Positions 7,159 through 48,788 of a DNA stretch of 58,139 nt are shown one piece after another (positions within the stretch are counted from its first letter, which is position 1; every line of letters begins with the position of its first letter). Made by a program: the position numbers and the translations under genes. Source of the stretch: Sistotremastrum niveocremeum HHB9708 (taxonomy: Eukaryota; Basidiomycota; Agaricomycetes; Sistotremastrales; Sistotremastraceae); contig KV419450.1 of NCBI GenBank assembly GCA_001630475.1, positions 1-58,139 of the forward strand, written 5' to 3'. The notes below the pieces were generated by a model, which worked only from the letters and a program-made list of their open reading frames with translations, did no database searches and was not told where the DNA came from.

Positions 7159-7794
7159 CTCAGTGCGTTGTTCTATGTTTCGCCAATGATATATTCAGCT
7201 CCCCTTTCAGGCTACTCTCCCTGTCTATGCGTTCTCATGATGATCCAAAAAAACGTCGACCAGTCAGTCTAAGAGAGAAGATTTTAAGCAGGAGGAAATT
7301 GAGCAAGAGCCGTGGCAAGAAGAAGTTGTGAAAGGATTTCAGGGACGTTCGGAGTCATGCACTGCGGCCAAATGGCGAGAGTGTGAAGGCGAGGCGTCTT
7401 GAACAAAGATACCCTGGAAAGTTCCACAACGCTCGTAATCTTTTGTAATAAGATAGACGGAATCCAAGAAGTTCTGTCACACAGATTAAGCTCTCGGGAG
7501 AGATGAATCGGCCACTATCAGAGTAACCTGGTAGATTCAGATACCTAGGTGCTGACAGACTCGCATCGATTTTCCTAATCACTTTCGGTCGGGTGCATTG
7601 CCCCAGTTTGAAAGCCCTGAGTATTATTGAGAACACTGAATGAGCTTTCGTCCTCCAGGGGCTTCGCTGAATTTGAATCGAGCTTAGTATCAAGAGAGAG
7701 CTCGGTTTGTTGAGGTCCTCCGACTCTCATATCTTGCCTATCAGTAACAAGATATTAAGATCCCAGTCAAGACGCCAGCCAATAGTACTCTGGT
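7159..7794. other. No gene recognised
   Basis: It lies between the MITE and the LINE fragment. A 112-codon minus frame (7355-7693) exists but shows no recognisable motif. The right edge could be the 5'-truncation point of the LINE. Confidence 0.35.
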
Positions 7795-9189
7795 ATGCAT
7801 AGCTCATCACGTTTAATCACGATTCATTCAATAAATTCATTCCAACAATTCAACCGTCATTCTCTTGATAACTATACTCTTGTTTTCATGAGGTGGATCG
7901 CGGATTCAATTAGGCGCCGTCCCAAACCACATCCGATAACTCTACGCTTGACAGACGAACGGAGGAGACATCAAGGATGCGCAGATATGGCATTCCTTGG
8001 CCCACCAGTTAAGCCGCGACTGGCAAGGAAAACTGCAGTTGCACCATCGAAAGGACGAAAACCCGCAACCAGACTCCACGAACTCATGACTAACGTTCCA
8101 GTTAACATGGAACGGGTGTCATTTGTTGACCACCCGCCCTGGCGAAGAACTTTTAATGACGGCGACGTCAGATACAGAGTTCAATTGACCGATTTTGCAA
8201 CAGATACCAAAGACAAAGCAGCACGGGAACACATGCTGAGATACAGGGCGACAGCCTCCGACCCCAAACACCTTCACCTATACTCCGACGGCTCTATGTT
8301 ATCGCTTCCCGATGGAACGAATGCAACAGGGGCAGGAGTTGTAGGGTACCATCGAGACGAGGAGGTGTTCTCAATTAAACTGAACACCGGTACACACTCC
8401 GAAGTGTTCGATGCAGAACTATCGGGACTGGCGAGAGCCTCCGAACAAGCCCTGCGATATGCCGGATCACACCCAGAAATCCAGTATATCCATTTATACG
8501 CTGACAATATTTCCGCACTCCAGATCATACATCAAGGTCTTCCAATCGGAGGACAAACAAAGTCCATCCGATTCAGGAATAGGATTTTCGGATGGTTAGA
8601 TGAAAACCCACTAAACGAATTCGAACTCGCCTGGTGCCCAGGTCATCAGGACATACGAGGAAACGAAAGGGCCGACGAGTTGGCGAAGCAGGCCGCGAAA
8701 ATTCTCACCCCCTCGCCTCTCACCACCCTGGCTCATGCTCGACGAATCCCAAGGGCCAAACCCATAGAAGAGTGGACGGACGAATGGAGGAAGACCCCTC
8801 CTAAGGGTCTATTCGGCCCTGCCAACTGTTTCCCTCCATCATGAAAACCCCGCAATCATTTCAAACAGCTCCCTCGCAAACTTTATGGCAGAGTTACGCA
8901 GTGTAGGACAGGACATGGCTTCTTCGGCGAATATTACAGTCATATGCGAGTTCCCGAGGACGTCGGATGCTCTTGTGGCGAGGAATACCAGACACGCAGT
9001 TATATTATCCGGGACTGTGACTTGCACACAACAGCACGTCAGAAACTAACCGATTCACTCATAGATATGACAGATAAGACAATCTTCGGCACGAACGAAG
9101 GTATCATAGCCCTCTCGGAATTCATCAAGGAATCAGGAGCCTTTGAGAAAACCGAACGACTCGAACCTGAATCCCAGGAGACACTGTAG
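7795..9189 (+). pseudogene. LINE ORF2 C-terminus: RNase H plus zinc-knuckle, with one in-frame stop
   Basis: The frame from 7795 encodes a pre-RNase H linker and a complete RNase H1-type domain. Counting from the first Met, candidate catalytic acids are D165 (YSDGS), E208 (FDAELSG), D237 (YADN) and D294 (ERADELA). A TGA at 8842-8844 interrupts it. The same frame then continues without another stop through a conserved LINE tail (TQCRTGHGFFGEYY, then CSCGEEYQTRSYIIRDC, a CCHC-like knuckle) to the stop at 9187. No reverse transcriptase or endonuclease lies upstream, so the copy is 5'-truncated, as is usual for non-LTR retrotransposons. The single stop suggests a fairly recent copy. Alternatively the 349-codon RNase H part is a free-standing ORF, but the intact downstream frame argues against that. 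Confidence 0.85.
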
Positions 9190-21767: not shown

Positions 21768-24700
21768 ATGTACAATTCGAAAAGCAAAGTTGAGACCGGG
21801 AAGAAGAGAGAAAAGCCACGGAAAGTGTGCTACTGCGTCACCGCTGGGTGCGTGAATGTTGAAACCGCCGATGGTCGCCGAGGTTGTGAGATGTCGGTCG
21901 AGCAGTGGGAGACTCATCAAGCAGCAGATGCCGTCGCCCACGACAGACTCGAGGTGATCAAACAAAAGGCGGAGGATACCTTTCAGAATGATCTCGATCG
22001 GGTCGAGCAGGATATCGCCAATCTTGTACTCATGGAGTCTTCATCTCTGCCATCCATCGATTCCTTGTGGGGTCGAGATTCCACATCCTCGGACTATCCT
22101 AGAGTAGGAGTGAAGCGACGAGAGCGTCGGGACGCACTCGATTTTCAAGCCAAAAGCTTGTGCTTGCTCCATGCTGATATCAAAAGATTCCATACATCTT
22201 CCCAATCTTCCATCAATGAATTCCTCAACAACTCCCTCCATTTCCTGTCCCCCAGCTTCCAATTCCCTCTCCTTCACATTGAGACTGAGTTCGCTCGTCT
22301 CCATTCTCTCCTCAGTGCCATAACTTTTGATGACCCATCCATCAAAGTCATGAAAGATCTGGCCACAAATGATCTGACTCCGGTAGCCAGCTTAATCGCT
22401 CACGCACGAATAAAATGGCAATCTGCCCTTGATCAAGTTGTTCGTCCTGAGCCTCCTATGCTTTCAGCTGCTCTTGGGCCCTCACCCCCTTTATTTGATT
22501 GCTGTAAGTTTGTTTAACTTACATATCATTGGATCAGACATCTAATGTCTGCCTAGCCCGTCACATGCGACCTATATACCAGAATACGGATCCAATTTTG
22601 GTTCTGACTGTCTTCATGATCATGGTGACTCATGTTGTGGCTGGTTTGGAGAGAAGATTCTGCAATTGGCTTCTCAGGATGTCCCAATACATCATCCATA
22701 CTACTCTTGCCAGGGCCTGTGGTACCTCTCCAATCCCTGCAAGGGAGAAGAATCTACTCAAAGAGATGCCTCGTGACATTCGCTCTGCTCGCAAGAAATG
22801 GGACTTGGATGGAATTACCATCCTTTATGCAGCTTGTCCTTCCTGTCACATGCTACAAAAGGTGGTCTATGAGAAAGGAAAACCAACCCTTTCTCCTTAC
22901 TGTTCAAACAGACCATTCTCTGGTGGTCGTGCATGTGATGCATTAATCTTAGCCCCTAGGCTAGTTCATGGGAAAGTCATCAGTGCACCTGTCCTCCCCT
23001 TCCTCTACCATGATTTTAAAGATTGGCTGGCCAATCTCATGTCACGTCCAGGCATGGAAGATGCCATGGATAAATCTTGGAAAGAATCTGAGGAGAGACG
23101 CAAACATGGTGTATGCACAGATATTCTGGATGGCACTGTCCTATCTACCTTCAAAGGGCCAGATGGCAAAACTTTGTTCTCTGTTGGTTCTGGAGAAGCA
23201 CGTTACGTCTTCAGTCTCTGCATTGATTCCTTCAACCCCAGGCTCAATAAGATTGCTGGTAAAAGTGTATCATGTGCCATCATCTCCATGATATGCTTGA
23301 ATCTCCCACACCAACTCCGCTATAAGAATGAAAACATGTTCTTGGCTGGAATTATCCCTGGTCCCAAAGAACCACCTATCACAGGGATTAATCATTACCT
23401 CTCTCCCCTCATTGATGATTTCCTGGTGCTTTGGGATCCAGGTTATCAGTTTTCTTGCACTGCCCAGTGTCCCAATGGAAGAGTGGTCAGGTGTGCTATT
23501 CTTCCACTTATCTGTGACATGCCTGGAGCCAGGAAAGCTGGAGGACTGGGTGCCCTCAACCATACCAAATTTTGCTATATGTGTCACTGTTCTGGTAGGG
23601 AAGACCTCCAGAGAGTTGACTATTCCAACTGGGTTCCTAGGACAGGAGATGAACTCAGGAAAGCCTCAGAGGATTGGAAAAATGCTACTAGCAAAACAGC
23701 ACAGGATAAAGTCTTTGCTGAGCATGGTGTTAGGTGGACAGAGCTACTTCGGCTGCCTTACTGGGACTCACGCCGTTTCATTGTTGTGGATGCCATGCAC
23801 AATCTCTACCTGAACCTTGTGAAGCATCATTTCCGTGTTGTCTTAGGCATGGACATACAGACAGGGACAGATGAAGAGGACCCAGATCATGCAGCAGACA
23901 TGGAAATCAGTGTGACCCCAGTGGTGCCTGATTATGTCAAAACATGTCGCTATATTGACACAATCAAAAGATGGATATTTGATCAAGACCATGTCAACAT
24001 CAAAGCTTGTACAGTGGCAGCATGGGATTGGGTTTGCAGGGATCTTGCTCTTGGGGTTGAGAAATCTTCCAAGAAAAAGCCTTATCAGGAGGCCCTTAAG
24101 ATATATGTAAGCCTTTCCCTTGTGTCTGTTGAACTTTACTTAATGATAACAGAGCCAGACTCACACAGCCTACCTCAGTGTTGCCTCTCTTGCTTTGCCT
24201 TCAGATCAAGATCCTGTCCCTGTCCCTGAGCCTACCAGATCATCTCCTTTGTCCAAAGGTGATGTAGAAGCCATCAGGAAAGACATACAAGAGTTGGTTA
24301 AACCCTCCTGGGTTGGTTCATTACCTAAGGACCTGGGAAGCAAAAGACATGGAAAATTGAAAGCTGATCAGTGGAGAAGCATTGTCACTATCTTTCTTCC
24401 TATTACTCTCATTGAGAGATGGTCCACTAAGAGCAGGTCTTCTGAGGCTTCAAGGAAACAACAGATGCTGGACAACACAATGGACCTTGTGAATGCAGTG
24501 ATTATTGCATCCAAGAAGTCTCTCACAAAGGATGACTGTCTGGCTTATCTGGATCATATGACCAGATATCTGACTGATCTCAGGAGACTCTATCCTCATC
24601 TTAAGTTGAGACCAGTTCATCATGCTGCACTCCATTTGAGTGAATTCCTGGAAATGTATGGTCCTGTTCATGGGTGGTGGACTTTTCCCTTTGAACGCCT

Positions 24701-33676: not shown

Positions 33677-35480
33677 ATGATCACCTTCACCTCAATCTCT
33701 GTCGTCCTCGGCATCCTATGCGCCGTCGAAGCGACGACTCCGAGCATGTGAGAAAGAATTCGATCTCATGAGACCGTAGAAACTTACTTTTCCTGATTTC
33801 ATAGCGCGAGTGCAACTTCTTCTTCTCCGAGTTACACTACATATCCTCCGATCACCCCGCCGACCAGCACAACTTCCACGACTTCAAGGTTCGAAGCTTT
33901 CCTTTGTGATATACTCAGCAAACTTGATTTCTCTACCCAGTATATGCACAACTACTACCGCTGTAGTCTCTACTATCACCCTTTATCCCCCATGTGCCAA
34001 ACCCCCCTGTACCACGACATCATATACGACCAAATCCGTATACACCTGCTCTGCGACGAGAGTCCCCGTGTCATCCATCACTGAAACTCCTATCAAACGG
34101 TTAGTCGATCAATCTCTCTCTCTCTCGCGTGCTACCTGTACCAATATTGATGCGCATATAGTGACCTCTTCGGGAGAGTCAATCCCTCGCCCTCTTCCAG
34201 CTTGTGCACCAATACGTCCACTTATTATTCCACACTCTGTCCGACTGCATCGTGCACCCCTATCACCGAGACTGTGACCTCTACTCTTACTAGCAAGATA
34301 CCTTGTCCTTCGTACGTCGTATCCCCTCATCCATCATGCTAGCATTGACGAAGAATAGTTGTACGACGGTTCTCACGTCCACGATAACGGAATATCCACC
34401 TTGCCCAATTGCTCCCTGCACCACCATTCCCTATACGTTCGGAACGTTCGCTACGCCAGTCTCATGTGCATCACCAACGGGCTTTACATCGTAGGCGGTT
34501 TGCTCTTCTAGCGTCACTTCGTGTTAACCGTCTTATCAGGAGCCCTTGTCCCACCTCGCTGACTTCTTCGCCGTATGTCAGCTACGAGACTGTCTGCCCA
34601 TCGACGGTGCCACAATGCACCCCCCTCACCTTCACTACGAAAATCACCTCGACGGTCCCTTGTTGTACATCTCTCTTGACGTCGACTCTCACTCAATTCC
34701 CCGCCTGCACACCTAATTGCACGACGATCCCATTTACTACAAGCCCATGCTTCACGCCTATATATACAACTGTTGGATCGAGCTCGTAAGTGAATCAATG
34801 CCTCGGCTCGATGTTAGCTAACACTCTTTTAGACTTTCTATTGGCAGTAAATCATGCTCCGGGAGTCAATCGACGATATGCTCGTATACCTGTGCCCCGG
34901 TATATAACACGACTACTATCACGGCAACTGGGCCCTGTCCAAACTGCACCTACGCCGTCCCTACCTCTTCGGTGATTACCATATATTGCGATCCTGCCGG
35001 CCCTTCGACAACATGTACTGACTGGGTGACCACAATCCCGGCAACGACATATACTTCAGGTATATGTACCACGTAAGTTCCTCACTCGCTTTCTGAAGAA
35101 TCAAAGATGCTGACTCCGAGTCTTCGTCACAGTCCCTGCTACAAGACGTTGACTTCTACAATTGGGTCGACACTCAAGCCATGCAGTACAACATTAGACT
35201 GCACTCCCACGACCGTTCCCATCACCTCACTCTACAGCGTTACTACGGCCTGTCCGACGTTTACGACTGCCCCTCCATCATACACCATCACCACCATCCC
35301 TCCGACCCAGACGCCCTATGGACAATGCGGAGGAATTGGATGGACGGGATATTCGGTTTGCGCGAATCCGTATTCGTGCGTCGACATTGATCCGTATTAT
35401 TCTGAGGTATGTCAAGTGATTTGAGTCTGTGGATGGTTTGCTTATCTCTGCGTGTTTAGTGTCTGAACGAGAGCTCTTGA
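33677..35480 (+). CDS. Secreted Cys/Thr-rich repeat protein with C-terminal CBM1
   Basis: Nine exons: 33677-33747, 33805-33888, 33941-34099, 34162-34311, 34359-34490, 34540-34785, 34833-35072, 35133-35406 and 35460-35480, giving 458 aa with all junctions in phase. It starts with a signal peptide ([19 protein letters not shown]). The body is a chain of modules with the pattern C-T-T-x-x-x-S-T-(I/L)-T-x-(Y/F)-P-x-C-x-x-x-x-C-T-T, one or two per exon, in Ser/Thr/Pro-rich sequence likely to be O-glycosylated. The last 36 residues form a fungal cellulose-binding module ([15 protein letters not shown], later ending SECL). The tiny last exon supplies the CBM's final Cys-Leu. The first seven introns are all phase 2. 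No catalytic domain is present, so a cell-wall or surface adhesin that binds plant or fungal polysaccharide is the likely role (inference). Confidence 0.85.
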
Positions 35481-35739
35481 GGTCCTTTGAGGCATGATCC
35501 CCGGACATATAGCAGTGTGAATTGAAGACATCCATTGCGCCTCATTTTACAGGGTTCCAAGGCTTTGATTTTGTTAGTTATCGAGCGCCCGGCCCGGCGC
35601 TTCGGATCAATGATACAATCTCACTCTGGCTCGTGGATAGACGACATGTATATTCCGACAGATATACGTTTACTGTGTTATTGTCAACCCTTTGGTTTAT
35701 CAGACTTTGTTACTCATTGATATAAGAAGCTTGACATAT
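35481..35739. other. Short intergenic region
   Basis: 3' flank of the CBM1 gene and decayed tail of the first peptide-gene relic; nothing else seen. Confidence 0.4.
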
Positions 35740-35865
35740 GTATCTATATCCACCATTGACTACATTGGTGTCTGGAATATTGTCTTCAGCCTCCTGCTCA
35801 GGGGATGCCATCGCGGCGACAAAAGTCGCAAGGATCAGGATCGGATAGAGGATCTTGAAGGGTAT
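35740..35865 (-). pseudogene. Small secreted peptide family, copy 1 (dead)
   Basis: It reads PFKILYPILILATFVAAMAS, then PEQEAEDNIPDTNVVNGGYRY, closely matching copy 3 at 38080-38276. The initiator is ATA (35865-35863) where copy 3 has ATG. The splice donor after the final Tyr is ATATGT where copy 3 has GTATGT. No usable tail exon follows. Loss of both start and donor shows the copy is inactive, while the rest of the frame remains open, so inactivation looks recent. Confidence 0.75.
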
Positions 35866-36378
35866 AATCGCAATACGGAATTTGACTTTAGTTGATATTA
35901 AACGGGCTATCTCATATGCGCGACTGATAGCTAAGCACCATGCAAGCCATGGGAGGACGAGTGAGTTATTGCGGAAAAATACTTTGTGAGCACGCTGCGC
36001 TGATGATTCTCAGAAACTTAAGGTACTAGGCGTCATTAGAGAGGATCGAGGGATTCGAGGCCCTTGACTTTGGATCTTTGAAGTTTCGAAGACAGTTGAC
36101 CATCGCACGGATTCAGGAACGATCGTAGGACCACATCAAATCCACTTGCGTCTCAGCCAGTTCGTTCAGTCACTTCAGTGCCAAGGACGTCCGTGAGGAC
36201 GAGATACATTGTCTTCTACACACTATACACAGCATACATGACCAATGCGGTATCAAGAATCAATCTCGCTATCCTCGCCCTCAATGACTCCTCATAGGCA
36301 CTTTCTTCATATTTGCTACGTCAAGCCTGAGCACTCGTCAGCACAGATAAGACCTGACGCAATATGGACCCACGATGA

Positions 36379-36567
36379 TCAGGGCAGGTTGCCTCGCTGT
36401 GTCTTTGTCAGCTCGGACGATGTGAATGAGGATGAACGGCGTACGTAGGTGTATTCTATGTTGAAGGCTCCAGTGTCGGGAACTTCGGTGGGTTCAGCCG
36501 CAGGAGCAGCGGCAGCAGCAACCAAAGCTGCGAGGAAGAGGACGGGGTAAACAACTTTGTACAACAT
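36379..36567 (-). CDS. Small secreted peptide family, copy 2 (46 aa)
   Basis: Exons 36567-36445 and 36396-36379. Signal peptide MLYKVVYPVLFLAALVAAAAA, then a Pro/Glu/Ala spacer and IEYTY. The intron follows the last Tyr directly (donor GTACGC), and an 18-nt exon adds RGNLP and a stop. The 48-nt intron is itself open, so an unspliced form would add 16 residues before the same tail. I prefer splicing because copies 3 and 4 share the donor position and a similar tail. TATATA is about 75 bp upstream of the ATG on the coding strand. Function unknown. Confidence 0.7.
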   Translation of the reverse strand: MLYKVVYPVLFLAALVAAAAAPAAEPTEVPDTGAFNIEYTYVRRSSSFTSSELTKTQRGNLP

Positions 36568-36615
36568 GATGTGATTGCAGGTGGACTTTGCTCGAGTATT
36601 GGTCGATGCTTTCAT

Positions 36616-38079
36616 GGCTGGAACTGGACGAGATTATATATTCCGCAAAGCCAGGAACCGTCTGAGCTGCGCAAGACAGGAGTCAACGCCATTCTTCGTG
36701 ATACGATCCTAGTATTGCATTGAAGCTCCTTGGCGTTGAGATGATTGGTTGACTCATTGACTCGAGGGAAAAGAAAATCCACTAAGCAACCAGGAGACTG
36801 AATCATCAAGGCACAGTCTGGGGAGAGAAGCACTAAAGCATGCGTAGAAGCCTTATAGAAGGCCAGTAGAAGCTGAAGTCGTGTGATGCACCATGACTGA
36901 AGGGGAGGTTCGACGCTGCTTATGGTTTGAAAGTCATAACTAGGCCAGTCATGGGTTTCTCTGCGAAGTTGCATCCTGACTCTGGACACTTCGAAAATCT
37001 AGAGTGTGCGGTGTCGACTTGATACTCTGAGAGAATACTGACAGGAGAGACCGCCTAGAACGACTTGTGATGCCTCCAGAAGCCTATGGAACCTGACAGC
37101 CTGTCGATTTGATTTCGGTCGAGTCCTCATGGACGAGTAGAAATGAATATAGAACATCAATCAACAGACGGAGAGCGGCAGGGAGAAGGTTCTGTCGGTA
37201 TTACATTGATTTTTCAAAGATTGACGCTAGTTAGGAGGCTTGCACGAGTCCATGAGCGAGTCGAATGTCCGCTTGGACGAGGTGAAAATTTGCGCCCCGC
37301 CAGCGTCATCGACGGTAAGCGAACGATAGCCGTCTGTCAGTCTTCTGAGAATGTTGCGGTCCATGATTTCGAGACTACACAAGCCCATTTGAGGTTTACT
37401 TGGCTTGAAACGAACTGCCTTGACATACAGCTTGAACAGTGTTCAGATACAATGCTCTCGTTTATCCGCAGTTCTCATGAGAGGGCCAGAGAGTCAAAAG
37501 AAACGTGATGAGGGCCATAGTTTAGACTCCAGAGTTCTAGTCAAGCCGTTGTTGGGACGGAACTACACATAAGCGACCAAAATCACCAGATATTATACGC
37601 ACAGCTCCACGTGTACCGTGTAGGCAATTGAATTGTCAAGCAAGAGTATCCATAGGATTTAGATGTAACGCAATGACCACGATTAGCCGTTGGGAGCAAG
37701 ATTTGCCCCTCACTGGCAGGCGCCGGCTCATCCGTCGGAGGATTTGCCGGAGCTTGATGAGCTGCTTGAATCGACGAAGTTAATTATAAGAGCCAGGCTC
37801 GAAGTTTCCCAAGAGCCTACCAATGCCCAGAAAGGCACTCATTGATGATTGTCTCATTCCATCTCCTGAGGCTATGGAGCAGGAGAAGGACTTGCTCCCA
37901 GTCGACATTCAACTTTTGAATTTCGTATCCGCCGCAGCGAAGCCAAAAATTGTGATGGATGTCAGATAAGACTAATTAGCATTGACCTCAACCCTTCATT
38001 GCGGGCCTAATTACTGACTGTCTGGATCACTAGTAAGATCCCTAGCTCGAACAAAACCCGAAATTAACTGACTCCGTAT
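36616..38079. other. Spacer inside the peptide-gene array
   Basis: About 1.4 kb between the first and second gene pairs. The part next to each gene resembles the matching flank of the other pair; the centre (37.1-37.9 kb) appears unique. A plus frame at 37143-37508 has no recognisable motif. Confidence 0.4.
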
Positions 38080-38276
38080 TTAGGGCTGCTTCTATGACGA
38101 TCTGATAAGGCTCTACTGCTCAATCCCAGAAGACAGAAAACTCGACATACATATCTATAGCCACCGTTGACTACATTGGTTTCTGGAATGTTGGCTTCAG
38201 CTTCGGGCTCAGGGGATGCTATCGCGGTAACAAAAGCCGCGAGGATCAAGATCGGATAGATGACTTTGAAGAACAT
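38080..38276 (-). CDS. Small secreted peptide family, copy 3 (45 aa)
   Basis: Exons 38276-38151 and 38091-38080. Signal peptide MFFKVIYPILILAAFVTAIAS, then PEPEAEANIPETNVVNGGYRY, intron with donor GTATGT, and a 12-nt exon giving KQP and a stop. An earlier AG would give an immediate stop; the chosen acceptor reproduces the Lys...Gln-Pro tail of copy 4. It pairs with copy 4 in the same way as the dead copy 1 pairs with copy 2. Confidence 0.65.
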
Positions 38277-38768
38277 GACTGATAACGGGAACTTTGCTCG
38301 CGATTGAATCGGATTGACTACAGAGACGACTGCACTTATAACATGTCTGATTGATCGTCAGGCACCGGCTAGTGCGCAAGGCATTGGAGAATGAGTGGGC
38401 TAATGCGGAGGAATGTATCGCACGGGCACGCTGCAGTCATGATCATCGGAGAGAGCACTGGGTGATACGAGGATCCAGTCCCTTTGATTTGGATCGTTGA
38501 ACCTTCGAGATGAATCAACCGTCACACGAATCCAGGACCGCTTATATGACCACCTCAAGTCCACTTCACAATTCAAGAGTCTCTTCAGCGCCAACGATGT
38601 CCATGGGATGGAGTACATTGTCTTCTATTTAATACACACAGCATATGTGACCAATGCGGCGCCAAGACTCAATTTCATTACACTCTTCCTCACGGAGACT
38701 CCCTCAATTTCCCTGCACAATTGCTCGTTAGAAGGAATACAACGTGATATGAATCGGACCCACGACGA

Positions 38769-38956
38769 TCAGGGCTGGTTTCCTTTCTGTATAATGGGTG
38801 AGCTTGGGCGTAGGAAGTGAAGATGATAAAACGTACGTAGCCATAAGCGTGGTCAACAACGTCGACATCAGGAGTTTTAGCCTCGGCCTCTGGAGCCGCA
38901 GTAGCAGCAACCAAAGCAACGAGGAAAAAGAAGGGGTAGGCAATCTTGAACAACAT
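38769..38956 (-). CDS. Small secreted peptide family, copy 4 (45 aa)
   Basis: Exons 38956-38837 and 38786-38769. Signal peptide MLFKIAYPFFFLVALVAATA, then APEAEAKTPDVDVVDHAYGY, intron (donor GTACGT, 50 nt) and tail exon KGNQP with stop. Unspliced reading gives a longer, unconserved tail. Upstream sequence (GTTATATATTGC... on the plus strand near 39029) matches that of copy 2 and carries a TATA-like box. Predicted mature product is about 25 residues, acidic in its N-terminal half and with three Tyr/Gly residues before the tail. Confidence 0.72.
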
Positions 38957-40290
38957 GATTCGATAGGGCCTAGGGAGGTTGCTTTGCTTGACTTGAAGAC
39001 AATGCTTTCGACATTTGCGTTGAGTAAAGTTATATATTGCTCAAAGCCAGGAACCGTTTGCGCTGTGCGAGAAACGAGTTTGACGCGATTGCGCGTTATC
39101 TGCCCCAGAGTCGAGATCAAGCACCTCGAGATTGCGATGATTGGATAACTCGTAGACTCGAGAGAAATTTCAAGCATATCGACTGAAGAGACTGAATCAT
39201 CCAAGGCACAAGTCAGGAACACCGAGTCAACGCATGCCTTCGGGGAGGTTAATCGTGCGATCTATGGAGAAGATCCAGATATTCGAGGCTGCGGATTGTC
39301 TCAGAATCCTGCTGACCATGTGATCCTTCCATGTCGCGTCATCCATCTGAATACTTAGAAATCTGTGCCAGCGCTATCTGAGAAAGTGTTCACAGAAGAC
39401 AGTTCCCAGTTCCCAAATCGATGTAGAATGTTGCCTAGATAATACGACCTCGATTATCTCGATCTCGTGTTGACGAACGTGCGAGCGTTTATTTGATAAC
39501 CCAGGTGTGAAAGTTGAATGAAAGACATGGATCAGGAGACAGAACTGGAGATAGAAGCATTATTCGCATGAGTTCGAAGACATTTGAGCGATAATGCTGG
39601 CGGTGCAGTGCTAGATCAGCCAAGAACGCGCGAGCAACCCAGCTAAAGGAAAATCAGCATTGTCGACCTGTTATCAACCGTACAATTGAGCATGATGCTG
39701 GTCGAGGATTGAACGTTTAAAGTCGGGCTCAAAAGCAAATAGATGGGAGCTGGTGCGACTCGGAACGACAGTGATGGCAGCGGAGTTCTTAGGGTCTAGC
39801 CAGCTTACGCAAATTTCCCCGTTTTCGCACCAGTTCAGCAATATTGATGAAACAACTAAATTTCTGTTCTTGCGTATAGGACAGACAGAGGAAGTGCGAA
39901 CGACCGTAGCATGGTCACCATACTTTCATCGTTGATTCAAATTAATTCCCTGCAGGAATGTTAAAAGGATATATTTTCAGGACCAAGCCCTTCGATATGG
40001 ATCTTCGAGCCTGAGTATCGGAAAGGATCATCAATCTCACGGGTTCAGGAACACTTGCAGTCCCCGCTTCAAGCCCACTTCAGTGTCCGAAATTTTGCTC
40101 ACGGCCAAGAACATCCCGGTACGTACGTGAGGAGAGAATGTAGTGTCTTCCGTACGATCCACGAAGAAAATGTAGATATAGCGGCCTCAACAAGAGATCT
40201 CATATCCTCGTCTTCATAGGAATCCTCGATCGCATTACACGAGCACCCGCTGACGCGGATTTTACACGACGAGATTCGGACCTACGAGCG
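38957..40290. other. Spacer inside the peptide-gene array
   Basis: The sequence at about 40000-40190 aligns by eye with 36060-36260 and 38460-38660 (shared GGATC-TTCGAG, CGGGTTCAGGAAC-type words and a tail ending ATTGTCTTC...), showing that the repeat unit extends beyond the genes. No other gene was recognised; the frame at 39753-39935 is unsupported. Confidence 0.4.
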
Positions 40291-40480
40291 TTAAGGCTGT
40301 TTTCCTTCTGGCAGATCTGTTAGCTTGAGGATAGCAAACAAAGACAAAGACATACATAGCCGAAAGCCTGATTCACAGGGTCGGTATCAACGTCTTTGTT
40401 TGCGCTCTTAGTGCCTGGTATCGCAGCGACCAAAGCCGCGAGGAGTAAAAACGGGTAGGCGATCTGATATAGCAAGACAT
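40291..40480 (-). pseudogene. Small secreted peptide family, copy 5 (frameshifted)
   Basis: After the ATG at 40480 the expected reading TTG CTA TAT CAG (LLYQIAYPFLLLAALVAA) is displaced by two extra bases, so the ATG is out of frame with the signal peptide. The rest of exon 1 runs to QAFGY with donor GTATGT (exon end 40356). The tail exon (40307-40291) is 17 nt instead of 18 and also slipped. Both lesions suggest a pseudogene, unless an upstream start within the longer open frame is used. Confidence 0.6.
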
Positions 40481-42004
40481 GTTCGCAAGGCCGATCGAAA
40501 ATGCTTCTGGCGGTTACTAATAATGCATAATGCTTAGAGCCTGGCGAAGTCATCTGAAATGAGTACCAGGAGTCATTCGGATAGTGAGAAAAAGACGTCA
40601 ACAGTGCGGTCGAGCCCAGGCTCCGGAGCCCATACTCAGCGCTCCTTAACGCTATGTGATGCTTGGGTACCCAAATTTCTCATAAAGATTCGAACCGATT
40701 GGATCTTTCAACTGATGCATCGACTAGGCGCAAGTCAGGCACATAGATCTGAGCGCATGGGTCCAAGGGGGTATCGTGCGATGTTTTTGATTTGAGCGCT
40801 GTGCATCGTGTTGGAGTCAAGCTAGACAGAGGAATTCTTCGGTGTCGCGTCATCAGGTTAGGTTATTCGCGATTCAGACAGTGTTCTGGGGGTTCTCTGA
40901 GAAGAAACTAAGGGGTGATAGTCCGGTGGTGAAGGCATGAGGCACCTCTAGAATTTCGAAATAGACTCGACCACTGGCAGATGTTGACCCATTTGAAAGC
41001 GCAAGGTCAACTAGCCAGCCATGGGCAAATGTAATCGTCAGAGGTGATTTATAGTCGTTCAGAATTTTCTCCGGGAGCTACGTTGACCTAGTCAAAGGCT
41101 TCACTTGCAAAACTAGAAGGAGGCCCGCGAATGCTTGACAGTGATGATGATGGGCTGAGACTCGGAACTGGTCGGCTTCCGGAAGTGTTTTAGCAGCGCC
41201 TCTGCCAGAGTCTATCTAGCTCGCACAGGCCATGTAAAATCAGTCCACACCCGCCATAGTCCCTGCTTCTCTCAATTATGCCAAGATATACTGTCCATTG
41301 ACTTTTGATGGATGCGATCATGTCAGCGAAAACAGCGAGGTCACAGTTACTCCTCATGAACCAGAAATTGAATGCGCCATGCATCAAGCCACGGATGTCC
41401 TCGCCAGCATTCTGTGTGCCTTTGCAATAACCTTCTCTTACATCGATCCAACCAAGCTTTGCGTCGTGATATACATGCTCTGATGAAGCATCAGTTTCGT
41501 CGGAGTGCAACACGACCTCGTTTGACTGTGACTTTACTTGCGTTTCGAGGCTCATGATCAGAGGACGAAGACTTCAGGAATTCATAAACAGCGCTCTAAT
41601 AATGTGGTTGACGTGTCGTCTCGTAGCTATCTCTCTGACCGGACCCAATTTCTGGTTATCTTGCCCCTTATCTCCTGGGCCGCGAATGTCAATGGAATTA
41701 TAATCTCCCTATGCCGTGGCTCTGTCAAGTACGCTTGTCGTACAGATCATAGTAGTCTATCGAGCTTTTCCGAGACGTGAGCACGTGAGCACATCCTGGC
41801 TTCTTCTCTGCTTATCTCGACGTGGCCTTCCTTGATTTATAGGCGCAGATCGTGGGTGCAGTACATTCCATCTCTTCGGTCATTCTACATGTCTAATGCC
41901 AAGATACCAGATTGAAACGGTGATTACCGCCCTCACGTTGCTACTTCCCAAGGGGCTACAAGCAAGAACTTCCCGCCTCGCAAATGCATCCCAAATACCG
42001 GTTC
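40481..42004. other. Spacer inside the peptide-gene array
   Basis: A minus frame of 121 codons at 41190-41555 has plausible composition but no recognisable motif and no supporting exon structure. Otherwise nothing was recognised. Confidence 0.35.
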
Positions 42005-42221
42005 CTATCCCCATTTCCACCCTTCTTTGCTCAAGATCGCCTGCTCATCCCAGTCAGTCCAGTCGTAATCAATGTCGCAGCGAAGCCCTTACATATTTGT
42101 ATAGGCTATCTACGACGCCTTCGACGTCTGGAAGGCGTGCTTTCGCCGCTGGTTCTGGAAGAGCAGAAGCAGCGATCGAACCAACAAAGAGGAGTACAGG
42201 AACGAAGACTTTGAACAGCAT
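42005..42221 (-). CDS. Small secreted peptide family, copy 6 (54 aa, divergent)
   Basis: Exons 42221-42093 and 42040-42005. Signal peptide MLFKVFVPVLLFVGSIAASA, then LPEPAAKARLPDVEGVVDSLYKY, intron with donor GTAAGG exactly after the last Tyr, and a longer tail exon, AILSKEGWKWG. The signal start (MLFK), the LPE/PD-V spacer, the Y-x-Y junction and the intron position place it in the family; the tail belongs to a second subtype shared loosely with copy 7. Confidence 0.62.
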
Positions 42222-42647
42222 CTTAATTCACCTTTCAGAGGAGAAATTGCGCGATGCCACGTCTCATGTGCAAGCCAAGCCTCTTTTAAATGTCGACGTT
42301 TCCAGCCGAGGTTGTGAAAGAGTGTCCATTGCTGGTGAACTCGAGGGCGCGTCTCTCAATGACTGGATAGTCTCTGCCTGCCGAATTGTCGCTTGACTCG
42401 AGCGTGTGTAATCTTGCTGGATGCCATCTGACGATCGTGGGTACTACGCCTCGTGTTCTCGAGCTCGGCACAAGAGTCTAAACACAGCTTGATCATCCAC
42501 CAGCGCTCAGTTACAGCACGACATGCGTACACTATGAACCTGCGGAATGCTCTTGTTACGCCCAACTCGCGGAAAGTCTTGCATCGGATTGCATCATCTA
42601 CAAGTGGAGGACACAAGTGAGTGGCGTCTAAAGAAAGTCACTCTGTT

Positions 42648-42874
42648 TTATGCCCTTTCACCCTCCCTAACCTCTCCTTCACGCGCTTTGCTGATCACCT
42701 GGTCAGTAAAAATAGACATCTGTACCTCAACACTGTTCTCACATATTTATAGACGTCGTCAACTTTATCTGTATCGGGACGCCGGGCCTCGGCTTCAGCC
42801 TCAGCTTCTGGCAGGGGGTTAGCTACCGCGAAGGCTGCTAAGATGAGGAAAATGGATAGATATCTTGCGAGCAT
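42648..42874 (-). CDS. Small secreted peptide family, copy 7 (60 aa, divergent)
   Basis: Exons 42874-42743 and 42698-42648. Signal peptide MLARYLSIFLILAAFAVANP, then LPEAEAEAEARRPDTDKVDDVYKY, intron with donor GTGAGA after the last Tyr, and tail VISKAREGEVREGERA. An alternative acceptor four codons later gives QSA and a stop. An in-frame ATG 11 codons upstream exists, but the shorter start gives a proper signal peptide. Four EA dipeptides lie directly after the signal region. Confidence 0.6.
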
Positions 42875-46676: not shown

Positions 46677-48788
46677 TCAGAGCTTCGAATGGAAATCGAC
46701 GCGCATAACCTACATTCAGATGAGTATTATCTTAGGAAAACGAGAATATCGATATTCTTACCATCTCAGGGGTCAAATCACTGACTCGGGCTGCACCTAG
46801 AAGCCTCATGCCCGTAACAATCTCTCGCTCCATAATCCGAATCAACTTGACGACCCCGGCTTCGCCGTATGCCTAAGCCAGAGAGTCAGGAATGCATAGA
46901 GTATCCGAGATAGCGCGACGAGACGCTTACACTATTGGCATAATTGAAAGGCCTGCCCATTCCAACGGCTTTCGCTCCCAAGCAAAGGGCTTTGAGCACA
47001 TCTTGGAGTGACATGTCAAAATTTGACCTCAGATAGTACCCAAATGACTCACCGGTTCCTCTCCGAACACCTCCATCAATGAAAACTACAAGCTTAATTC
47101 AGAAAGCTCGAACGAATGAGATATGAAGAAAGTCGACCTTCTAGCTTCTCGAAGACTTCTGGGTGTTGCAGTCGTAGCTGATAGAGTGTCTCTATAGAAG
47201 GAGGTGCACTGGCAAACCCATTCAACAAATATTCTCTAGTACCGTCGACACTACGTACTAGTCAAGCTGTCGCCCTAACTTCATATAAGCATCGACAGAA
47301 TCGGACTGGCTATTGGACATACCTCCATGATTCGATAAGACTATCCCATCGACACCGGCCTCGGCCGCAAGGAGAGCATCCTAGATGATGATGAGTGCTC
47401 CGGCAAGACGAATAGATTGCCCCGGCAAACCTCAACGCACTGTATGCCTGTCAAAGACATTAAGTCAATAGGATCGCGGTCTCAAACGATTGCTTAGCCC
47501 GTACCTTTGACAACTATGGGTAATTTCGTAATGCTATGAAGCCACGGGATAGTCTGCAACGTCGTGAGTTGAAAAGAGTCTACAAAGATGATGAGATGGA
47601 CTGACCTCTTCCCACGTCTTATCGGCATCATCTTGCTTAGAGAACGCACTAGCAACGCCTCCTTCGCTCCCACCAGCTTCAATCTCCTCATCTTGCGATG
47701 GTAGGGGTTCACCTTCTCTCTCTTCATCCTCCTCTTCAAACGGCGCTTTGATGTCGGTCTCTCGATTCCCAAGTACAGGTGCATCAACAGTCAAAAATAT
47801 GGCTTTGTATCCTAATTGTTCCGCGCGATGAACAAATCTTTTAGCGATTTCGTTGTCGGGATTCTTGTAAAGCTGCAAGAAGAGTGATTGTTGGGGTGTA
47901 AGGCGGGCGGCGGCGATTTCGGCATGTGAGAACGATGGATTCGTCCCGACCATCTGGATGATTCCAGTTCGACCTGCACTACGGGTGAAGTTCAGATCGC
48001 CGTTGGGGTGGGCGAGTTTGGCTAGGCCCGCAAACGAGATGTAGACAGGGATGCTGCTCTTGTGGCCTAATATCGTGGTGGACGGATCGCATTGAGAGAC
48101 TTTGCGGAGTACCCGAGGTTTGAAGAAGAAGCGACTGAATGCCCGAGCGTTTTCTCGCAAAGCTAGATTAGCGAATGATTTCAATATTGGAGGCCCATAG
48201 GTGTAGGTTTACTCACATATTCCATCGTCTCCTCCCGACGCATAGTATGAGCGTGCTTTGCGCGGTAACACTTTCATAGCGACATCCTGCACTCGTAAGA
48301 CGCGGTCGACCGGCAAGACTGAACGAACGTACCTCGATATCTGCACTGCTCAACATCCTATTTATTGGAGGCTTCCGCTTTCTCTCGAGTTCCACTCGCT
48401 GCATATCCTTGGTTTTCTTTGCCTGCCCATCAGCCCCAGTCGGTGCCGAATCGTCCAAGTCTATGGATCCGAGGTGCTTGTCCTTGGAAAGATATTCGTC
48501 CAGGAAGCTAAGAGGATGTATCGATTCGTAGGCTGTGGTAGCATCCTTTCCAGCAAATTGCAAGATGACTTTTGTCCCGCCTGGGTGTTCCTGTATCCTT
48601 GAGTACGGCCTCGTAAAGTTCAGTGAAGTCCAACTTACGGCAAGGAACGAGGTGACATCGTAGACCCGGCGCTTCACAATCAACCAACACGAGCTGGTCT
48701 ATCCGTTGAGCGGATTATCTTCTGAAAAATAATCAACCAATCACCTCTGTGTGTTATGCTGAGCGACCTGCTCGATAGTCAACGCCAT
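46677..48788 (-). CDS. CYB2: Cytochrome b2-type L-lactate dehydrogenase (FMN)
   Basis: Fourteen exons: 48788-48745, 48693-48639, 48590-48333, 48286-48217, 48162-47606, 47553-47505, 47447-47431, 47380-47323, 47274-47259, 47208-47138, 47085-47053, 47001-46931, 46872-46762 and 46709-46677, giving 480 aa. The N-terminal cytochrome b5 domain carries heme ligands H35 (EHPGG) and H58 (SIHP). A linker leads to the FMN hydroxy-acid dehydrogenase barrel: [28 protein letters not shown], the signature SNHGGRQ with catalytic H368, VDGGVRRG, and [16 protein letters not shown]. It oxidises L-lactate to pyruvate and passes electrons to cytochrome c in yeast. No mitochondrial presequence precedes the b5 domain in this model, so either an upstream exon was missed or the enzyme is not in the intermembrane space. 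Two exons are only 16-17 nt. It is divergent from the permease at 49594. Confidence 0.93.

Follow-up and report, generated by a model that had tools for sequence, protein, structure and literature searches.

A tandem array of predicted single-core secreted-peptide genes in Sistotremastrum niveocremeum and its possible kinship with UstYa-associated precursors

The first 58,139 bases (hereafter, the window) of contig KV419450.1 (C57; 157,935 bases) from the 34.7-Mb genome of the wood-rotting crust fungus Sistotremastrum niveocremeum HHB9708 carry, on the minus strand at positions 35740-42874, seven related tiny units, i.e., five apparently intact copies and two relics (copies 1 and 5). On balance, we regard this array as a family of secreted-peptide precursors, tandemly arranged and with one core each, that shares ancestry with the UstYa-associated precursors of the Kex2-processed repeat protein (KEP) and dikaritin types. 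Judged from the sequence, it is probably for the most part a Kex2-less offshoot of that precursor class, not an unconnected family. An earlier note on this DNA had reported seven minus-strand units with one gene plan, as the window sequence bears out, and knew of no described family with such a plan. Narrowly this holds, in that no annotated relative was reached beyond a single protein (P0001, below). The picture of an isolated family is revised here because the spacer behind the signal peptide reads as the known signature of Ste13 processing and the cores resemble those of precursors encoded beside UstYa genes. The features of the array are as follows.

42743..42874, minus strand: copy 7 exon 1, with MLARYLSIFLILAAFAVA (signal), NPLPEAEAEAEA (dipeptide tract) and RRPDTDKVDDVYKY (core)
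42648..42698, minus strand: copy 7 tail exon, VISKAREGEVREGERA then stop via a 44-nt intron, or QSA then stop via an acceptor 8 nt further on
42093..42221, minus strand: copy 6 exon 1, with MLFKVFVPVLLFVGSIAASA (signal), LPEPAAKA (tract) and RLPDVEGVVDSLYKY (core)
42005..42040, minus strand: copy 6 tail exon, AILSKEGWKWG then stop, preceded by a 52-nt intron
40356..40475, minus strand: copy 5 relic, conserved frame ending in VNQAFGY, followed by GT
38837..38956, minus strand: copy 4 exon 1, with MLFKIAYPFFFLVALVAATA (signal), APEAEA (tract) and KTPDVDVVDHAYGY (core)
38769..38786, minus strand: copy 4 tail exon, KGNQP then stop, preceded by a 50-nt intron; P0001 is spliced alike
38151..38276, minus strand: copy 3 exon 1, with MFFKVIYPILILAAFVTAIA (signal), SPEPEAEA (tract) and NIPETNVVNGGYRY (core)
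38080..38091, minus strand: copy 3 tail exon, KQP then stop, preceded by a 59-nt intron; alternative acceptors are possible
36445..36567, minus strand: copy 2 exon 1, with MLYKVVYPVLFLAALVAAAA (signal), APAAEP (tract) and TEVPDTGAFNIEYTY (core)
36379..36396, minus strand: copy 2 tail exon, RGNLP then stop, preceded by a 48-nt intron
35740..35859, minus strand: copy 1 relic, FKILYPILILATFVAAMASPEQEAEDNIPDTNVVNGGYRY, lacking a start codon and a GT after the last Tyr
35727..36815, minus strand: two-gene unit of copies 1 and 2, pairing with 38138-39210 (copies 3 and 4)
36635..36640, minus strand: TATA-like box of copy 2, at position -73

The genes are 45-60 codons long with a tail exon of 3-16 residues. 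All five intact copies begin with a hydrophobic stretch and an AxA-type site, a signal-like N-terminus that suggests secretion of the products. From the predicted signal cleavage site onwards, the spacers of the intact copies run strictly in X-Pro/X-Ala dipeptides (5/5), i.e., AP-EA-EA in copy 4, SP-EP-EA-EA in copy 3, NP-LP-EA-EA-EA-EA in copy 7, LP-EP-AA-KA in copy 6 and AP-AA-EP in copy 2; the Pro/Glu/Ala spacer described earlier is present and is corrected here to this strict register. Ala or Pro occupied 20 of the 20 even tract positions in these copies versus 2 of 4 in copy 1 (permutation product 6e-8, for copies that are not independent), and a single dipeptide (IP) is left in copy 5. 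A scanner for a signal followed by at least three such dipeptides recovered the five intact copies and nothing else from the window, and one match from 20 shuffled windows. At the DNA level, the pattern AxA-xPEAEA matched the genome three times and the reversed control not at all; one match is copy 4, and the other two were rejected as unrelated (a Lys-rich frame and a frame with stops). Slippage of a GAR-GCN repeat could also yield even-numbered length changes, and tract length alone is therefore no proof of processing.

By its sequence, the tract is a signature of processing by a Ste13-type dipeptidyl aminopeptidase. In the portions available of three papers, the X-Ala/X-Pro signature is assigned to alpha-pheromones and some basidiomycete KEPs (PMC6339444, PMC7329392, PMC9769878), and Pleurotus peptides are described as likely products of Ste13 trimming (PMC9769878). 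The genome holds one DPPIV_N locus, on contig C10, and four Peptidase_S8 matches at E ≤ 1e-10. The tract sits directly after the signal and not after a Kex2 site. A dibasic RR precedes the core in copy 7 only, where Kex2 could cleave; in the four remaining intact copies, dibasic pairs are absent from this position onwards. The predicted mature peptides would begin after the tract (KTPDVD..., NIPETN...), as in KTPDVDVVDHAYGYKGNQP, NIPETNVVNGGYRYKQP and TEVPDTGAFNIEYTYRGNLP. Across the five intact copies, the only invariant core residues are two tyrosines and one proline.

A GT lies straight after the last Tyr codon in copies 2-7 (6/7), as described in the earlier note, and is missing from copy 1. 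The predicted introns measure 48, 59, 50, 48 and 52 nt in copies 2, 3, 4, 5 and 6, respectively, with a branch-like CTNAY 33-42 nt into the intron. The predicted splices return the previously proposed tails RGNLP, KQP and KGNQP for copies 2, 3 and 4, and KGNQP recurs in P0001 (SISSUDRAFT_1062522, Sistotremastrum suecicum), which holds copy 4 with this tail spliced on. This public gene model, which is not transcript evidence, places the donor straight after Tyr-x-Tyr. Longer tails had been proposed for copies 6 and 7; copy 6 has one, and copy 7 is ambiguous between VISKAREGEVREGERA and QSA (introns of 44 and 52 nt, respectively). P0001 also has 17 extra N-terminal residues, which positions 38956-39006 of the window can encode only by omission of a few bases that include a stop, and the inner ATG at 38956 was for this reason taken as the start of copy 4.

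The lesions reported earlier in copies 1 and 5 are real. Copy 1 has lost its start and donor, and no in-frame ATG occurs upstream as far as the previous stop. In copy 5 the ATG is out of frame, as is the tail read from the usual acceptor; a further ATG lies upstream in frame, and an N-extended product of this copy is conceivable. The dipeptide run and a TATA-like box were both kept in 5/5 intact copies and lost in 2/2 relics. The boxes, sought within 160 nt upstream, lie at -73 (copy 2), -64 (copy 3), -80 (copy 4), -70 (copy 6) and -61 (copy 7), i.e., within -61 to -80. A TATA-like box at -55 to -85 accompanies 44 of the 2149 ATGs of the window, a comparison in which the motif set was picked after inspection and the copies are related to each other.

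Silent changes exceeded amino-acid changes per site in all 21 exon-1 pairs (38-42 codons each; the pairs are not independent). Silent (dS) and amino-acid (dN) divergence in exon 1 were 0.44 and 0.10 between copies 1 and 3, and 1.22 and 0.33 between copies 2 and 4; the remaining pairs had dS > 1.2 or were saturated. Copies 1 and 2 together match copies 3 and 4 as a segmental duplication (64.6% identity over 1137 nt), in which a 3' block and the TATA region are conserved as well; copies 5, 6 and 7 are not part of it. Between copies 2 and 4, identity was 47/60 in the signal, 14/18 in the tail exon, 95/149 over 150 nt upstream, 32/48 in the intron and 31/60 in spacer and core. Signal and tail exon being the most alike, the ends appear to have been kept while the core was free to diverge; copies 1 and 3, in contrast, kept spacer and core (dN 0.07). 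A 79-nt block 3' of copies 2 and 4 (36205-36283 and 38614-38692) is 77% identical, above its surroundings, and is possibly a shared 3' end or a regulatory element. Reading-frame selection, the public splice model, the TATA boxes and the dipeptide tracts together support real genes with one plan, accompanied by relics.

A protein search of the own genome, in which only the best candidates were scored, returned 6, 6 and 2 array places for copies 4, 3 and 7 as queries, jointly covering all seven units, and no further array copy elsewhere in the genome. The sole match outside the array was a weak one on C26 (E 0.21, query copy 3); it was first read as mere signal-peptide similarity and lies 4.6 kb from a UstYa match. 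The five predicted products gave no Pfam match above the cut-off. In the protein database, copy 7 alone met one candidate and no relative, and the alignment of the five products singled out P0001 among 230 candidates, so that one copy of seven was recovered. This search takes only proteins 0.55-1.75 times the query length, which oddly long models escape, and its failure to reach an annotated relative besides P0001 does not prove absence in nature. A DNA pattern of YxY plus donor was uninformative by itself (215 genome matches versus 255 in the reversed control).

The likely connection with a known class emerged from the surroundings of UstYa genes (PF11807, DUF3328), for which the genome has at least 63 exon matches at E ≤ 1 on many contigs. 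We sampled 20 stretches, a part of such places (200 kb, including three overlapping pairs). In these, the strict scanner picked up two genes, at C52:122,755 (predicted core QIGSAYKATNW after KERDADA) and C19:288,248 (a single VTSPSSNPDRMFLFW). A relaxed scanner gave 15 rows, 13 of them distinct and seven starting with M-F-x-K, compared with 7 rows in 1.16 Mb of shuffled windows, none in the window outside the array and one, met twice via overlapping loci, in 39 kb of other loci. Traits of the array recur in these UstYa-side genes in various combinations, i.e., an M-F/L-x-K start, X-Pro/X-Ala after the signal, phase-0 introns, a P-D-x-D/E core and Tyr-x-Tyr.

Parts of the array plan recur in several precursor-like genes. 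At C33:241,435 (plus strand), exon 1 encodes a signal and KPQPDIDYVYIYD; its GTGAGT donor sits one codon past the last Tyr, and by sequence this is almost the array plan. On the same contig and strand, 237,854-238,397 holds a five-core Kex2-repeat gene 0.45 kb from a UstYa match, with TPDVDDSDAYHYPNE-like cores between KR sites (PDIDDVDVYTGY, PDVEDSDAYHY, PDVDDSDAYHY, PDVEDSDVYHY and PDVEPVEVYHY); searched against the protein database, it met 10 candidates and no relative. C37:103,504-103,776 (minus strand), 1.6 kb from UstYa, has a predicted single core PDVETGDTYRY, the short tail CKGCSIP and a run of NPVPVP, and its core returned only itself and the C33 gene from the genome (E 0.13). Two small genes on C26 also look like precursors and have UstYa at distances of 1.9 and 4.6 kb. 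Two long precursors on C6 carry Kex2-separated repeats with PDTEESLGVYSGY- and YSSY-type cores and each have UstYa about 2 kb away; more matches of this type occur at C6:748-756 kb and 785 kb.

C6, about 788-790 kb, minus strand, and 847,582, plus strand: repeat precursors with YSSY- and YSGY-type cores

A further Kex2-repeat precursor lies at about 230.3 kb on C33 (minus strand), with five cores ending in PDIEPLVVY and a UstYa match about 3 kb away.

To compare the cores, we ranked 10,068 segments, translated in six frames from the 200 kb of UstYa surroundings, a further 20 kb of C57 and the window minus the array, by similarity to the five intact mature peptides. Exons of the five-core C33 gene ranked 1st and 3rd, each present twice via overlapping loci, and another ranked 14th; the C37 gene ranked 8th and C33:241,435 ranked 21st. 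The 3rd-ranked C33 exon fell to a median rank of about 298 (best 27) once the peptides were scrambled (30 sets). The best match of copy 4 (L030, score 46) was judged to be chance. A loosened common motif with variable spacing matched 39 times in the 200 kb (34 without overlap duplicates) and once in 2 Mb of shuffled sequence.

A number of results weigh against shared ancestry. The 1st-ranked C33 exon was absent from the scramble control, C33 exons reached the top six for copy 4 only, and the top 25 were mostly unrelated segments. Repeat frames of C6 at ranks 7 and 11 gave z of 0.7 and 0.6 against their own shuffles and held ranks 2-6 with scrambled peptides, and the C6 ranks are therefore uninformative on kinship. 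With a profile of the array cores, repeat-precursor cores stayed within the noise; a genome search started from the C33 repeat core missed the array at E ≤ 10; and a strict array-derived motif matched none of the UstYa-side cores. The spacing of the common motif was widened after both sides had been seen, and control DNA away from UstYa is scarce, amounting to 39 kb and the remainder of the window. Finally, none of the at least 63 UstYa matches falls on C57, where the array is flanked by 35.7 kb on one side and 115 kb on the other. With moderate evidence, we consider core kinship of the array with UstYa-side precursors likely, not proven.

On this reading, the products would most likely mature as follows. 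Signal peptidase would remove about 20 residues at the AxA-type site, and a Ste13/DPP-IV-type dipeptidyl aminopeptidase, for which the single enzyme-family locus is a candidate, would trim the tract two residues at a time. Trimming would free one acidic peptide of about 17-30 residues, with the form P-D/E-T/V...Y-x-Y plus the exon-2 tail, to act outside the cell, perhaps in defence or communication. This peptide could remain linear; alternatively, one of the many UstYa enzymes may cross-link its tyrosines oxidatively, in which case the enzyme would have to act in trans given that C57 has no UstYa match. The use of paralogous genes instead of repeats within one protein would let each core and tail diverge separately.

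Somewhat short of an even chance, the products are linear signals resembling alpha-pheromones, i.e., single-copy peptides processed by Ste13 and left unmodified, a reading that overlaps with ours on modification. According to PMC6339444, alpha-pheromone precursors bear the X-Ala/X-Pro signature, and agaricomycete KEP peptides are linear or minimally modified according to parts of PMC9769878; the lack of UstYa matches on the array contig points the same way. Against it, the intact cores hold nothing invariant but the two tyrosines and the proline, and the similar cores that rank best come from genes with a UstYa neighbour. We think it rather unlikely that the array encodes orphan, lineage-specific small secreted peptides (effector- or defence-like) whose resemblance to the UstYa side reflects convergence of short acidic Tyr-bearing sequence. 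The non-significant profile and genome searches, the five products without Pfam match and the sole annotated relative fit such an origin, but the start motif, tract residues, phase-0 introns, P-D-x-D/E and Tyr-x-Tyr recur in UstYa-side genes and the rank tests favour the C33 gene.

Slightly more doubtful still than an orphan origin is a split system for ribosomally synthesised and post-translationally modified peptides (RiPPs), in which a chromosomally separate single-core array, every precursor having a core and an exon-encoded tail of its own, supplies Tyr-x-Tyr peptides that are cross-linked by a UstYa enzyme encoded elsewhere and released by signal peptidase and Ste13, mostly without Kex2. 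Very improbably, the whole array is left over from tandem duplication, as decaying or non-coding repeats that make no product today: two of its seven copies are broken and copies 2 and 4 agree less in spacer and core than in the intron, but the silent excess holds in every pair, a public gene model exists, and open frames, TATA-like boxes and splice signals are kept in 5/5 intact copies. A CaaX mating pheromone was ruled out by the signal-like N-terminus and by the absence of Cys from all five predicted products.

Around the array, a fungal cellulose-binding domain (CBM_1, E 6e-11) at 35077-35421 adjoins it on the plus strand, with more frames from 33780; the two frames just before it had no Pfam match. 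A 127-codon open frame without Pfam match (41193-41573, minus strand) lies between copies 5 and 6 and was the one frame inside the array among the 20 searched against Pfam, of 592 window frames of at least 50 codons. Adjoining frames for cytochrome b5 and an FMN-dependent dehydrogenase (47537-48698, minus strand) form what we take to be a flavocytochrome b2-like gene. Outside the array, a tnp2-type transposase frame (22508-24226, plus strand) and an RNase H frame (7786-8841, plus strand) are likely mobile elements. Rfam and tRNA scans of the window gave no match.

If single-core precursors were common, fungal secreted-peptide repertoires would be undercounted, and UstYa clusters seemingly without a precursor could be explained; in the array itself, intact and broken copies stand side by side as a natural series. 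In the accessible sections of two KEP surveys (PMC7329392, PMC6339444), at least three Kex2-separated repeats in annotated proteins were needed, and the single-core array genes could therefore appear in neither. Among the KEP types that PMC7329392 lists, one from Sistotremastrum comprises 12 members from two strains, eight of which neighbour DUF3328 genes, and PMC8893723 gives 16 UstYa-like genes for Pleurotus. For lichen RiPPs, a single core peptide is named as one possible reason for missing repeats in PMC12048977. A full-text literature search found no account of such an array in the passages it returned.

Ascomycete alpha-pheromone precursors share the Ste13-type dipeptide tract with the array, which differs in having no Kex2 repeats, no pheromone-like core noted and a basidiomycete host. 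The dikaritins (ustiloxin, phomopsin, asperipin) derive from secreted precursors with a Tyr-bearing core, as the array products are predicted to, and the nearest-looking genes here lie beside UstYa; the array, however, has neither repeats nor a UstYa match on its contig, and its Y-x-Y contrasts with the YxIx given for the ustiloxin and phomopsin cores in part of PMC7329392. KEPs with the Ste13 signature are alike in their X-Ala/X-Pro dipeptides and short peptide cores and have a secretion signal such as is predicted for the array, but those covered by the survey sections above have at least three repeats between Kex2 sites, whereas an array gene has one core and, in 4/5 intact copies, no dibasic site. 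The UstYa-side genes C37, C33:237,854 and C33:241,435 differ in having UstYa 0.45-2 kb away and a PD-to-YxY spacing 1-2 residues shorter than in the array, and C33:237,854 also in its five cores separated by Kex2 sites. In their P-D/E-T/V...Y-x-Y look, the array cores resemble the cores of such single-core or repeat precursors, found 0.5-2.1 kb from UstYa genes.

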